Source of the DNA: Lepus europaeus
Lineage: Eukaryota; Chordata; Mammalia; Lagomorpha; Leporidae
Assembly (NCBI RefSeq): GCF_033115175.1
Contig: NC_084831.1
Coordinates: 44,920,002 to 44,984,001 of the forward strand
DNA length: 64,000 bases
Direction: 5' to 3'
The notes below the pieces were generated by a model. It did no database searches and was not told the DNA's origin. It saw only the letters and a program-made list of their open reading frames with translations. Below are positions 21,020 through 64,000 of the stretch, piece by piece (the stretch's first letter is position 1; the number at the start of each line of letters is the position of its first letter). The position numbers were made by a program, and so were the translations under genes.

Positions 21020-22578
21020 AGCCTCTCTCTCCCAGGGCCCTGCCCTGGGGCCCACTGAGCTCTGTCCCCCTGGGAGGCTGATACCCATCGACAAGGATCT
21101 GTCAAAAAGCAAACAAACAGCTTGGTAGATGCAGGCACACTGGGGGAACAGGGCAGCGAACCCCATCTCTGTGTTTGTCTTTCCAGGGCCTGACGCGTGC
21201 AGAACATTCCTTGGGCCCAGCTCCCCCCGGGCGCCCTCAGGAAACCCTGTGGCTGTCCCAAGCCAGCAGCCAAACCTCAGGCGCGAGTCCCCTCGAGGCT
21301 CCAAGCCCTCTTGTTAGTGACAAGGCTGCTCTGCCGAGTGCTGGGCGGATGGTCCACTGCGCCCCACGGAGCCACCCGGGTCTCTGTGGCTCATTCACCT
21401 GGTGGTCCCTGGGCACGGGCACTTTGCCAGCACTGGCCATCCACAATCACGCTGATGCCCGCTCTTGCCCCACAAGGATCAGCCTCGCAGATCCCCGCAA
21501 ATGAAAAATCAAGGCTCATCTTTTGCCCAAGATGTCATAGTGAATATACCTGCAGGACGCCCCATCTCCTCTGTGACCGTTATCGGTCCAGGGAGCGGGC
21601 AATGGCGAGATGGCTACTTCCCCAACCTGCCGGTGGGGAGACAGCACCAGAGCATGACAACAGCCTAACTTGGACCCCCACGGGAGTCTGTGTCCCCAGG
21701 CCTGGGGCAGAGCAGGACTCAGGTGTGCTTGGGCAGCGAGGGACAAGGACGGGCAAAGCAAGGCTGAGCAGACGGTGACTATGCGGCCCCCAACCTGGTA
21801 GCTTGGTGGTGCTCGCTTTCCTGAAGGAACCGAGGCTTGCAGAGAGAGGCAGCTTTCCTCAGACCTCCAGGAGCAGAGCAGGGCCAGTTTCAGAACCCAG
21901 CCCACTCCTCTCTACTTCCCTTGCTCTCATTCCCTGTTGCCAGGAAGCTGGAGACATAGCTGGGTCCTCTCTGGAAAACTAGGCCCCCATGGGGCCTTGG
22001 GGAATTTGTGCAGGGAGTGTGGGTGCCAGTGGGTACAGGCTTGGCTGCTGCACCTCCCAGGCTTCCCGGGCCCTCTTGGGGAGACGAAGGCCTGGGATCA
22101 GCCTGCGGGCTCATTCTGTGCCTGCCTTGACCGTCACATGCCAGGGGAGGGCCAGAGGCCTGTTGCTTTGGGGTTGGGTCCAGGAAATAGTGGGGAGGCA
22201 AGGACGAGGGGGTGAGTCAGGGTAGATGACCTGAGAGCCCAGGGAGACATCTCCCAGGTCCCCAGCGGGGAGAAGGCGGGGTTGGGGGGGACTGGTGCTG
22301 GCAGTGCTGCCCTGGGGCCTGTGAGAGACACAGCCAAGGGTGCTGGGGCCAGAAGCATGGCTCTCAGGGCCCTGGCCAAGGGCCATAAGGGCTGAGAAAG
22401 CAACGGAGGGGTAGCCCACGGCCTGTTAGAACCCACTCCTCACCTCACACCCCAGTATGTCCTGGGACGGCGAAGCCTGGTGTGGGTAGGAGTCTGATTC
22501 AGGCTGGGAGAACTCTGCCTTGTCCCCTGTGTTCAGCTTCATTGCCCCGGGGTGGCAGCTGAGTCAGCATTTCCAGCA

Positions 22579-23807: not shown

Positions 23808-23969
23808 CGTGTCGAGGTGAGTGCGCTGGTGCTTGGCACGGTCGCTGGAGTTGCTGAAGGCTTTCTGGCAGCCCGGGTGCTGGCACAGGTACGGCTTCTC
23901 GCCCGTGTGGCTCCGCAGGTGGATCTTGAGGTTTTCCAGACGTGAAAACGCTTTACTGCAGCCTTCAAA
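23808..23969 (-). CDS. GLIS1: GLIS1 exon: end of zinc finger 3 and all of zinc finger 4
   Basis: This 162 bp exon (54 codons, phase 0 at both ends) has acceptor CTCCTCCAG ending at 23970 and donor GTAGGC starting at 23807. It begins [15 protein letters not shown] and ends QRTHLDT. Counting from the exon start, Cys4, His17 and His21 complete finger 3, whose first Cys must come from the upstream exon. TGEKP at 22-26 is the canonical inter-finger linker. Cys29, Cys34, His47 and His51 form finger 4 ([18 protein letters not shown]). These fingers make DNA contacts in GLI/GLIS proteins. No substitution affects a zinc ligand. The acceptor end of this exon is duplicated at 25443-25553, and a MER20-like fossil lies just past the donor. 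Confidence 0.97.
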
Positions 23970-24066
23970 CTGGAGGAGTGGCCAGTGAGGAGCGCTCTTG
24001 GCCTACAGGCATGCCCCCAGGCCCCTCCCTGCCCACCTACCCTCTCCCCTCCTGCCCGAGCCCCCA
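23955..24066 (-). repeat. Duplicated unit, copy A (contains the real exon acceptor)
   Basis: This 112 bp includes the first 15 bases of the finger 3/4 exon, its 3' splice site and polypyrimidine tract, and about 95 bases of upstream intron. It matches 25443-25553 almost base for base. Confidence 0.9.
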
Positions 24067-27000
24067 AGAGCTCTGGGTCAGCTTCCCAGGAAGTGCTCCG
24101 ACTCAGAGAAAGTACATGCCTAAATTAGAAACAGGCCACCAGGGCCAGGGAAGAACATGGTCTTGCCACTCGTGGGTCTGAGAGGACCCCTCATAGGGCC
24201 ATCGGAAATACTGCGGCCACAGCAAGCCTGAGTCAGGGCTCTGAGGGCAGCTGTACACTGCAGCCCAGACAGCCTGAGATCTGGAGCTGTGTCAGGCTCT
24301 GTCCCAGTGAGGCTCTGACCCCTCTTGACTTAATTCCCTGTCTTCACACTTGGGGCTGTGAGGCTACTGCTCAGTGCTGATATGAGGGACCCAAGGATAG
24401 GGGACACTGAATGATAAGGGGGTTCGTCCACCTGCAGGGCATGATCAGCATCCACCGACTGCTCTCAGAACTACCACCACTCCCATACCTAAGGTATCTG
24501 ATTTATCATCCGGCCGTCTGACTGCTCAGTGCCCACCATACACCAAGCCCTGAGCTGGGCAGTGTGGCATGGTGCAGCTGTGTCACTGCCTGCCCGCAGT
24601 CAGAGGGTGGGTAGTGGGCAGGCAGAGCAGCAATGAATCCCAGAGAAGAGGAAACAGCAGTGGGCTGGGGGGCTCTGCCCACCCAGACCTTCCTCCCAAG
24701 GCGCCAGGCCGCCTGTTCCCTCAGCCTCCACCCAGCTCTGCCCTCTCCCGGGAGTCCCCTACCTTCTAACTCCTCCCTGCCTCCTGCTGCCCCATTCTTG
24801 ACACAGGAGCTCAGAAGAAGTTGCTGAAGTAGCAATAGGACCCTGAAGCTCTCTTTTCTGAAGTGCCTCTGGCCTGGCACTCAAACCCCTGCACACCTTC
24901 CTGCCTCTCTCCTCACTCACCCACATTTGAGAATAACATCAGGACTCAGCCAATTTTGAGCGTTTGCTCATGGAAGTTGCTTAGCAAAGAATGTCCTCTC
25001 TCATAACCACTCACCCCATTCCCCCTCGGCCGTCAAAGTCCAGCTCCAGTGCTGGCCAGGGCAGGCTGCCTCTTCTTGCCACCCCCCTCCCCAACGCCCA
25101 CCATCTGACTTGATGGACAGTTCCTGAGTTAATGTTCTGGCTGCGTGCAGGCACCTGCAGCCTCTGGGCACGGTGCTGGGTGTTTAACCACACAACAAAA
25201 ACCATGAAGTATGTGCCTCAGGCACAGTGACCTGCCCAAGGTCACAGGGCTGTGACAGGACGCAGACAGGACTTGGACCAAGTCTCAAGTCTCACGCTAA
25301 GGCCCAGGGGGCTCTGCTCTCTCACTGCCTTCCCAGGGGCAGGTGACCCTTGAAGAGAGACAGCAGTGGCAGGTCCCTCCCCAAGCGAAGTGTTCACTCC
25401 CTGGGCCCAGGGTGGAGTTACCACTACTGATTAGGAATGGCAACTGCAGCCTTCCAACTGGAGGAGTGGCTGGGAGGAGCACTCTTGGCCTACAGTCAGG
25501 GCCCCAGGGCCCCTCCCCATCCACCCGGCCCCTCCCCTCCTGCCGAGCCCCCAGCCTCTGAACCAGGGCCAGTCTGGGCTTCCAACAGCAGATGGCCTGG
25601 CACAAAGTGGGCATAGTTTCGTTTCCCAGGGCCTAAAGCTCCACAGGCCTGCTCATCCACGCCTTTTCTCTAGGGGCTCATCTGCAGGGGGAAGAAGAAG
25701 GGACTGGCTCCTGTTCACATCTACATTTGGAACCCGACACCTCCCTCTTCAGAGATGGGCACCCCAGCTTTTGCCCTCCCCAGCTTCAAAGGAACCTTAT
25801 CTGTTAACAAGGCGGGTAGGGGTAATGGCTGGAGAGGACCAGTGGCAGTGTTCAGACGCTGTAGTCACCCTGGGAGGTCAGTGTCCCCAGGCTGGGGCAG
25901 CTCAACCCATGTGGTGATTTTCCATGCAGGCCCATTCATTTGGACAGAATGGCTCCAGCCTGCTGGGTGAACCGAGATACAGCAGGAACACAGACACAGG
26001 TCCTCCCCTCCAGCTGCTCAGAGCCCATGTGAGAGACACACACACTGCCCCTCCCCCTCATAAAGCATCACAGTTGAGCTGTCATGGAGTGACACACAGG
26101 GGCTGTGGCAGCCCAGAGGAGACACCTTAGCCAGCCCGGGGGCCATGAGGCATCTTGGGGGGACAGATGGCTGCACCAAGTGGGGTGCTGGGTGGGAGGC
26201 GTGGAAGACACAGGCAGGCAGTTACTCAACACCCATGCATTTAGTTTATTCAACCACTGGCTCACCTGAGCCTGGAACCATGACCCTGTGGTTTACCAAA
26301 GACAGTGGGGCACATGGGCCTTGAAGGCCAAGGGAAGGCAGGCTCAGGGGCACCTGAATCCCTGTGGAGGCCTCTGAGGCTGATGTGGGCTCCAGCAGGT
26401 GAAGAGCCTGGGGAGGGAGGTCAGAGGCCAGACAGTGGGGCTCAGACTCCAGGCTGACGTGTCTGGACACCACCTTGGGGACGGCGGGGACCATGAATGG
26501 GCCTGAGAGGGGACAGGGACAGATATGTGCTCTAGGAAGCCCCCTCTGGCTGCTGGCAGTGGTTGTAGGCTGGAAGACAGACAGGGAGAAGGCAGTCACA
26601 GCAGAGAAACGAGGGTCACCAAGGCCCAGTCCAGGGCAGAGGCACTGGGTAGAGCAGAGGCCAGGGTAGACGGCCTGAACGTAAGGATAAGGGCTCAGGG
26701 ACAGCAATTGGGTCGCAGGTGAGCTCCATGCTCGCCTCTCTGTGGAGGCCCCACTACACTGCAGGCTGCGTGTGCTGGGGCGGCTCCAAGGCCACCTACC
26801 CACAGCTGGGTTATAGAAGCTGTTCCACTTCCCACTTCCAGATTGTTGGGCCTTTCCCATGCACGCAAACCCAAAGGAAATCCCAGTTGGGGAGCAAAGA
26901 GGCCACAAGCCTACTTGCTCAGCTGCCATGCCCTGTGCGGCGGAGGGGACTGGGCAGGAGAGGGGGCTTCCTTCTGGCATTTGGCTTGCCCCACTGCTCC

Positions 27001-42439: not shown

Positions 42440-43300
42440 TTCACAGCTCTGTTGAGATGCAATTTGCATAACCATAAAATGCAACCATTTAAAGTACACA
42501 GCCCAGTGGTTCTGAGTATACTCAGCCTCTTGCAGCCATCCCCACAATCGATTTTATAACATCTTCATCACCCCCAAAAGAAACCCTATACCTACTGGCA
42601 GCCAGTCGCTCCCTCACCCCAGCGCCCAGAAACCACTAATCTACTTTCCACTTCTATAGATTTTCTATTCTTGAGACCTCATGTATGAGGGTTTGGCTTG
42701 CCTCACCCAGGAGCATACGGTTAGAGCTTCTGTGGCTGTGAGAGTCAGTACTTTGCTCCTTCTCCCTGCTAAGTCACACTCCATTGTGCGGATGTCGTAC
42801 CCTTCCTCTGTCCTTCCACCCATCAGGGACTGCAGGTGTTCCCACCTGCTGGCCATGAGGACCAGTGCTGCCAGGAACATTCCCATGCAGCTCTTGGTGT
42901 GGAGGTTTACTCCCATCTCTCTGGGTAGACACCTAGGGGTAGAGCCGAGAGATCATATGGCAACTCTGTGTTCAATCACTGGATACACCTAGGTGCAGAA
43001 TGGACAGATCACATGGAAACCCCGTATTTAATCACTCGGGGACCAGCCTGTTTTCCTAAGATGCTACACTATTTCACAGCCCCACTGCGGCATGTGCAGG
43101 TGCCCGTTTCTCCACGGGTTCCACCGTCGCTGGGACTCCAGTCATGCCGGTGGGTGTGCAGTGGGATCTCACTGGAGCTCTGCCTGCGTTCCCCTGGTGG
43201 TGCATCCGTTCACATGCTCTTGGCCACTTGTCTTTGGAGAAATGGCTATTCCAGTCCTTTGCCCATTTTTTAACTGGTTTATGTAGCTGGTTTATTATTA
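42440..43300 (-). mobile_element. L1 fragment, minus strand, with inner tandem duplication
   Basis: The 42440-42660 part (TTGAGATGCAATTTGCATAA, CATTTAAAGTACACAG, CACCCCCAAAAGAAACCC, AGAAACCACTAATCTAC) and the following text up to TTTGGAGAAATGGCTATTCC follow an old mammalian L1 3' region in reverse. Heavily substituted, no intact frame. A 56 bp stretch inside is tandemly repeated (42929-42984 and 42985-43040). Confidence 0.8.
42929..43040 (-). repeat. 56 bp direct tandem duplication inside L1
   Basis: Both units start ACACCTAGG and share AGATCA, CATGG-like, TTCAATCACT/TTTAATCACT landmarks in the same spacing. L1 relatives as I know them carry only one copy, so this is a private duplication that has since diverged. 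Confidence 0.7.
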
Positions 43301-51630: not shown

Positions 51631-52207
51631 ACATATGCACACACTCCTCCACATACACTCTCATCCATGCACACACACTGGCATTCGCCCACACACTCAT
51701 CCGTACTCACACTTCTCTGCACACCCATACTCACTTATCCACGTTCACACATTCATCCACAGTTGTCCACACACACTCATATATACTCACACTTGTCTCC
51801 CCATACACACACACTCATCTACACATTTATACTAATTCACACCCATACTCACTCATCCACACTCACACACTCATCCACACACCATACTCACACTCCTCCA
51901 TACAGACTCACACTGATCCATTCAGATATGTATCCACAGCTGTCCACACACACATACATACTCACAACACTCATCTGCACACACTTAGCTGCACACATTT
52001 ACACTAATCCATACCCATACTCACACTCACCCACGTTCACATATTCACCCACACACTTATCCGCTTTCACAGTTATACACACACACACTCATCCATACAC
52101 TTATCTATACTCATATATTCATCCATACACTCATCACACACTTACACTCACCTTCATTCATACATACACACTCATACACACTCACCCATACACACACACA
52201 CTCATGT
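51631..52207 (+). repeat. CA-rich minisatellite
   Basis: About 575 bp of imperfect repeats built from CACACTCATCCA and CATACTCACACT-type words. The plus strand is almost free of G. It creates an apparent 191-codon frame of Thr, His, Ser, Pro and Tyr, which is a by-product of the repeat. On the GLIS1 transcript it appears as a long G/T-rich (UG-rich) stretch. Confidence 0.9.
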
Positions 52208-63134: not shown

Positions 63135-63328
63135 AGTTCAACAAGAGCAAGGGCTCTGAAGCTAAAGAGTACATGTCAAAGCCGGGGTCTCCACTTCCTA
63201 GGGTGTGACCTTGGCAGTTGCTCCCTTGCCTAGGCTGCTAAGTCTTCAGCTACAACACGGGGACAGCAACACATGGCTCACGGGTATAGGGAGCTAACCT
63301 GAACTTAGCACAGCATCTGGCCTGTATT
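63135..63328 (+). mobile_element. MIR remnant
   Basis: GGGCTCTGAAGCTAAAGAG, GGGTGTGACCTTGGCAGTTG and GCACAGCATCTGGCCTG match MIR head, core and 3' end. Confidence 0.65.
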
Positions 63329-63341
63329 ACAAATAAAGTAA

Positions 63342-63672
63342 ATGGCCGGTGCCGCGGCTCACTAGGCTAATCCTCCACCTTGCGGCACTGGCACACGGGG
63401 TTCTAGTCCTGGTCGGGGCACCGGATTCTGTCCCGGTTGCCCCTCTTCCAGGCCAGCTCTCTGCTGTGGCCAGGGAGTGCAGTGGAGGATGGCTCAAGTG
63501 CTTGGGCCCTGCACCCATGGGAGATCAGGATAAGCACCTGGCTCCTGCCATTGGATCAGCGTGGTGCGCCGGCTGATTGGAGGGTGAACCAACGGCAAAA
63601 GGAAGACCTTTCTGTCTCTCTCTCACTATCCACTCTGCCTGTAAAAAATAATAATAATAAAATTAAAAAAAA
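63342..63672 (+). mobile_element. Young CSINE with perfect target-site duplication
   Basis: GGCCGGTGCCGCGGCTCAC head, GGTTCTAGTCC B box, GTTGCCCCTCTTCCAGG, CAAGTGCTTGGGCCCTGC and GGGTGAACCAACGGCAAAAG. It is flanked by a perfect 13 bp direct repeat ACAAATAAAGTAA at 63329-63341 and 63673-63685. Confidence 0.98.
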
Positions 63673-63728
63673 ACAAATAAAGTAAGTGGTTTTTCCTATA
63701 TTATCATGTATTAAAAGTAAAGTAGGTG

Positions 63729-64000
63729 GCCAGTGCTGCGGCTCACTAGGCTAATCCTCTGCCTGCGGCACCGGCACCCCCGGTTCTAGTCCTGGTCAGG
63801 GCGCCAGATTCTGTCCCGGTTGCCCCTCTTCCAGGCCAGCTCTCTGCTGTGGCCCAGGAGTGCAGTGGAGGATGGCCCAAGTGCTTGGGCCCTGCACCCG
63901 CATGGGAGACCAGGAGAGGCACCTGGCTCCTGCCTTCGGATCAGTGCAGTGCGCCGGCCGCAACGCACCGGCCATAACAGCCACCTGGGGGGTGAACCAA
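63729..64000 (+). mobile_element. Young CSINE, cut by the window end
   Basis: GCCAGTGCTGCGGCTCACTA head, CCGGTTCTAGTCCTGG, GTTGCCCCTCTTCCAGG, up to GGGTGAACCAA at the edge. About 40-60 bases of tail would follow outside the window. Confidence 0.95.

Follow-up and report, generated by a model that had tools for sequence, protein, structure and literature searches.

Pace et al. (2009) described 824 proximal repair duplications in the human genome, whose copies lie 1.2 kb apart on average and have a median length of 147 bp (maximum 619 bp); by the authors' own warning, their method may have produced the peak of distances at about 1.2 kb (PMC2671141). In the sections of that paper drawn on here, these duplications show the hallmarks of synthesis-dependent strand annealing, and intron splice sites are among the duplicated elements, with 4 of the 824 donors being partial exon/intron sequence (PMC2671141). 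The class is also present in mouse, rat, dog and cow, at 0.18-0.26 per Mb in non-primates versus 0.52-0.65 per Mb in primates (PMC2671141). Introns also contain pseudo splice sites, which, according to the part of the source consulted, are an order of magnitude more numerous than authentic ones (PMC5578058). A related notion is the decoy exon, defined in the cited section as a non-productive engagement of splice sites that promotes intron retention (PMC8819188). Such exons have been proposed to hold back introns, as in OGT, and the excerpted text names OGT, SF3B1 and ARGLU1 (PMC12017769).

A splice acceptor that appears to have been duplicated within its own intron was examined in the window, by which we mean the whole 64,000-nucleotide stretch of DNA that was analysed. 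The features of the pair are as follows.

23808..23969, minus strand: real exon of 162 bp, FEGCSKAF...RTHLDT (54 residues), phase 0, donor ACG/GTAGGC
23955..24066, minus strand: parent block, made up of 97 bases at the intron's end and 15 at the start of the finger 3/4 exon
25443..25553, minus strand: copy block, consisting of a G-rich tract, a pyrimidine tract, an AG at 25459-25458 and then 15 exon-derived bases at 25457-25443
25431..25457, minus strand: frame that would be read if the copy were used, LEGCSCHS, with a TAA stop at 25433-25431

The peptide of the real exon matches Pfam zf-C2H2 and residues 72-123 of the GLI five-finger structure 2gli_A, which was fifth of 212 matched sequences; the top match was another C2H2 protein, ZNF568. 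We take the exon to encode fingers 3 and 4 and the gene to be GLIS1 itself, no paralogue. GLIS1 is in use as a reprogramming factor. Upstream, the exon that we read as fingers 1-2 terminates in HSGEKPNKCM with donor ATG/GTGAGT at 81559, beyond the window, so that the host intron extends from 81559 to 23970 (57,590 bp, phase 0), and splicing to the copy would give M/LEGCSCHS and then the stop. Among the listed titles and openings of abstracts on GLIS1 in rabbit and on GLIS1 isoforms and splicing, none mentions the copied site, which is no proof of absence. Relatives of the finger 3/4 exon, sought in viral contigs by an exact degenerate pattern, numbered zero.

When the two blocks were aligned, as the sequence-only reading had proposed, 96 of 113 columns were identical (85%), with shared orientation and an offset of 1,488 bp. 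The differences comprise 14 substitutions, 9 of them transitions, and three one-base gaps, giving a K2P distance of 0.141. The local alignment score was 135; shuffled sequence (300 dinucleotide shuffles, 2-kb target) averaged 23.7 and never exceeded 36. That reading had reported a copy of about 111 bp, lying 1.5 kb upstream in the direction of transcription in the same orientation and carrying 15 bases of exon; alignment and coordinates bear this out, and the frame LEGCSCHS followed by TAA was also read correctly. Its further statement that the pyrimidine tract and AG are kept needs a qualification, because the tract is not intact. A duplication created in assembly is unlikely, because the copies differ in 17 of 113 columns. 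The real junction was presumably the source, since coding sequence follows on from that junction only.

The block has sharp ends, since the sequence on either side is at background level. Along four diagonals, identity over 80 and 300 bases either side fell inside the range of other diagonals; the top value over 80 bases was 0.338, and the background reached 0.388. Local alignments of the 40-base flanks were equalled or exceeded by shuffles in 332 of 500 trials on the 5' side and 133 of 500 on the 3' side. A scan for target-site duplications of 4-8 nt found none at the copy's junctions, and on reading the sequence no run of A or T of at least 5 was seen there. Within the block, identity is not confined to the splice site: 12 of 59 columns differ in the 5', G-rich part and 5 of 54 in the 3', acceptor part (Fisher p = 0.12).

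When 25380-25620 was searched against the animal's own genome, just two places came back, the copy and the parent; by its own warning, the tool used passes over simple repeats and words that are very common. At E 1e-8 the two blocks each have a single partner in the window. On these two results the possibility that the match is a dispersed repeat found at many loci was rejected. Scanning the window for Rfam families and for tRNAs gave no matches (0 each). In the 264 kb around the gene, 17 duplicate pairs were recovered after pairs in higher-copy repeats were dropped. Four of the 17 are in direct orientation, span 100 columns or more and lie less than 5 kb apart: the copy and parent, and pairs of 110, 101 and 195 columns, the last at 75% identity. 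Small local duplication is therefore ordinary here. Among these four the copy and parent form the only pair spaced by more than 250 bp, and the direct pair at 51694-52056 sits in CA-rich satellite-like sequence. The array to which this sequence belongs (51694-52205) has several overlapping periods, from 10 bp up to 38 bp, and matches itself over 195 columns at 75% identity. Elsewhere in the window, 63323-63573 and 63707-63958 are direct repeat copies, 88.5% identical with starts 384 bp apart; they are dispersed repeats, because they have up to 7 partners in the window. A 56-bp unit is repeated 1.9 times at 42929-43036 (76% matches).

Acceptor and donor sites were scored with a weight matrix uncalibrated on known sites. 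With this matrix the copy's acceptor scores 6.76, compared with 6.32 for the true site and 6.49 for the presumed finger 5 exon acceptor (19583). By its score the copy is thus at least the equal of the true site; it is not visibly dead, and this speaks against a description as degenerate. Scores of this order are common in the intron: by the same matrix 220 of 4,645 intron AGs reach 6.76, with the copy counted in, and 259 reach the score of the true site, with the true site counted in. Between the copy and the true site, the AGs at 25348 (8.09) and 25249 (7.01) both outscore the copy on this matrix. Around the acceptor itself, loss of one A has changed CTCAC at -17 to CTCCC. In the parent this motif, at 23984-23988, is the sole yTnAy within 80 bases upstream of the true acceptor, its A lying at -17, near the AG. 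The copy has gained a branch-point-like CTGAC at -39. Two further features bear on the use of the copied site.

25470..25471, minus strand: new AG, whose G occupies position -13 relative to the acceptor of the copy; the parent is without it
25416..25421, minus strand: highest-scoring donor-like sequence up to 250 nt from the copy, GTG/GTAACT, score 6.00 (uncalibrated matrix), which would define a 36-nt exon

Other donor-like sites lie at 132 nt (4.56), 162 nt (4.20), 226 nt (4.08), 303 nt (5.21) and 356 nt (6.09), all scored with the same matrix. Of the 220 high-scoring AGs, 76 are followed at 30-250 nt by a donor scoring 6.09 or more, and the copy, whose best in that span is 6.00, is outside those 76. 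The copy does combine an acceptor-like site with an in-frame stop, as a poison exon requires.

Retention of the acceptor can be accounted for without selection. Neither the distribution of differences within the block (Fisher p = 0.12) nor a neutral simulation showed selection on the copy's acceptor. In the simulation, which comprised 20,000 runs that start at the present-day parent site and admit substitutions only, the AG was retained in 86% of runs at 7% divergence and in 74% at 14%; in 65% and 45% of runs, respectively, the score was at most 1 bit below the parent's. Since neutral drift predicts that the AG will be retained, survival of the site is no evidence of function. If both copies drift alike, the K2P of 0.141 would correspond to about 0.07 per copy, and from this distance an origin inside the lagomorph lineage is likely. 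For comparison, 83 rows in the 264 kb matched a C-SINE consensus, as would be expected in a lagomorph; the top row is 92.4% identical over 303 columns, and the 12 rows listed of the 83 span 87-93%. The description of the duplication as recent, made in the sequence-only reading, is a relative one when a K2P of 0.14, or about 7% per copy, is set beside these C-SINE matches.

We consider it very probable that the copy arose by repair-mediated proximal duplication and is now an inert pseudo-acceptor, one among many in the 57.6-kb intron. About 111 bp spanning the intron end and the first 15 exon bases would have been copied once, in direct orientation, to a place 1.49 kb upstream in the same intron. 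The likely event is a double-strand break that was repaired off the nearby template by synthesis-dependent strand annealing. The copy would then have drifted, leaving a plausible-looking 3' splice site that is most likely ignored and has no good exon attached. Two interpretations had been offered before this analysis, a poison acceptor or a harmless duplication. The harmless one fits better, because the copy is one of 220 intron AGs that reach its score (uncalibrated matrix), because neutral drift predicts that the AG stays and because no good exon partner stands out; the length, spacing and orientation of the pair fit a known mutational class, which gives this interpretation a likely mechanism. 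The other was left unsupported, with a small probability. Some observations do run against the preferred reading. The copy slightly outscores the true site on the uncalibrated matrix (6.76 over 6.32) and has gained CTGAC at -39, and its acceptor part differs less from the parent than the remainder does, though not significantly (p = 0.12). As for the mechanism, the pair is 85% identical, whereas most of the duplicated conserved segments in the cited part of the Pace et al. study keep more than 90%, and such events are rarer per Mb in non-primate mammals (PMC2671141).

Were the copy a poison or decoy acceptor, it would engage the donor at 81559 or define a stop-containing exon, and GLIS1 output would be cut by decay or the 57.6-kb intron held back. 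An acceptor score that matches that of the true site (uncalibrated matrix), the CTGAC at -39 and the in-frame stop after 8 codons would all suit such a role, as would the length of the host intron, because retained introns with decoys tend to be longer in the portion of the source used here (PMC12017769). We nevertheless regard it as improbable. With the uncalibrated matrix, 220 intron AGs, copy included, are equal or better, and two of them, 25348 and 25249, would be met before the true site; the copy has gained an AG at -13 and lost CTCAC; and its best donor within 250 nt would define an exon of 36 nt, and the next, at 132 nt, scores 4.56 on that matrix. It is very unlikely that a repair event in the lagomorph lineage gave GLIS1 a second acceptor that now serves as a stop-bearing decoy tuning the level of finger-containing transcripts.

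We give an equally slight chance to the proposal that the block was copied, or persists, as a G-rich element of regulatory or structured DNA, to which the splice site is incidental. G4-type motifs do lie just upstream of both acceptors, at 24014-24065 in the parent and 25502-25537 in the copy, and fork stalling at such motifs could have triggered the copying. The motif is common here, however, with 19 G4-type islands in the 64 kb on this strand and 18 on the opposite one, and the G-rich half has diverged more (12/59) than the acceptor half (5/54). The least probable of the readings considered is that the copy is the remnant of a larger tandem duplication whose remaining parts were deleted. Direct orientation and close spacing would be expected of one, but flank identity is at background on both sides along all four diagonals, 25000-26000 is without a second match to the parent's surroundings, and 23600-24500 matches the copy alone. 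At E 1e-3 the sole other match of 25000-26000 in the window is a direct one of 30 columns between 25872-25900 and 21682-21710 (90%, E 2e-4).

On the preferred reading, that of an inert product of repair, the locus is a tidy case of a splice acceptor copied by local duplication, and a natural test of what an acceptor needs beyond the site itself. It would gain larger importance only if a lineage-specific use in GLIS1 proved true.

Comparison with the described systems places the pair closest to the proximal duplications of Pace et al. The shared traits are these: the copy is local, single, 111 bp long at a distance of 1.49 kb, and includes a splice site (PMC2671141). The pair is also within the limits given for the class in the section cited, the copies being less than 5 kb apart and their length below 619 bp (PMC2671141). 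It does not look retroposed or dispersed, having two places in the genome, no A or T run of at least 5 and no target-site duplication. It departs from the class in its setting, because the copies treated in the cited part of the paper are inside transposons, whereas the surroundings of the GLIS1 copy are without a repeat partner in the window (PMC2671141). Pseudo splice sites and pseudoexons, as the consulted parts of the sources present them, resemble the copy in being intronic look-alikes with a stop close downstream; unlike them, it would derive from the genuine acceptor of its own intron and not from chance (PMC5578058, PMC8819188). Like the decoy and poison exons of OGT, SF3B1 and ARGLU1 in the excerpted account, the GLIS1 copy, if it were used, would add a stop codon and might rival the true site (PMC12017769).
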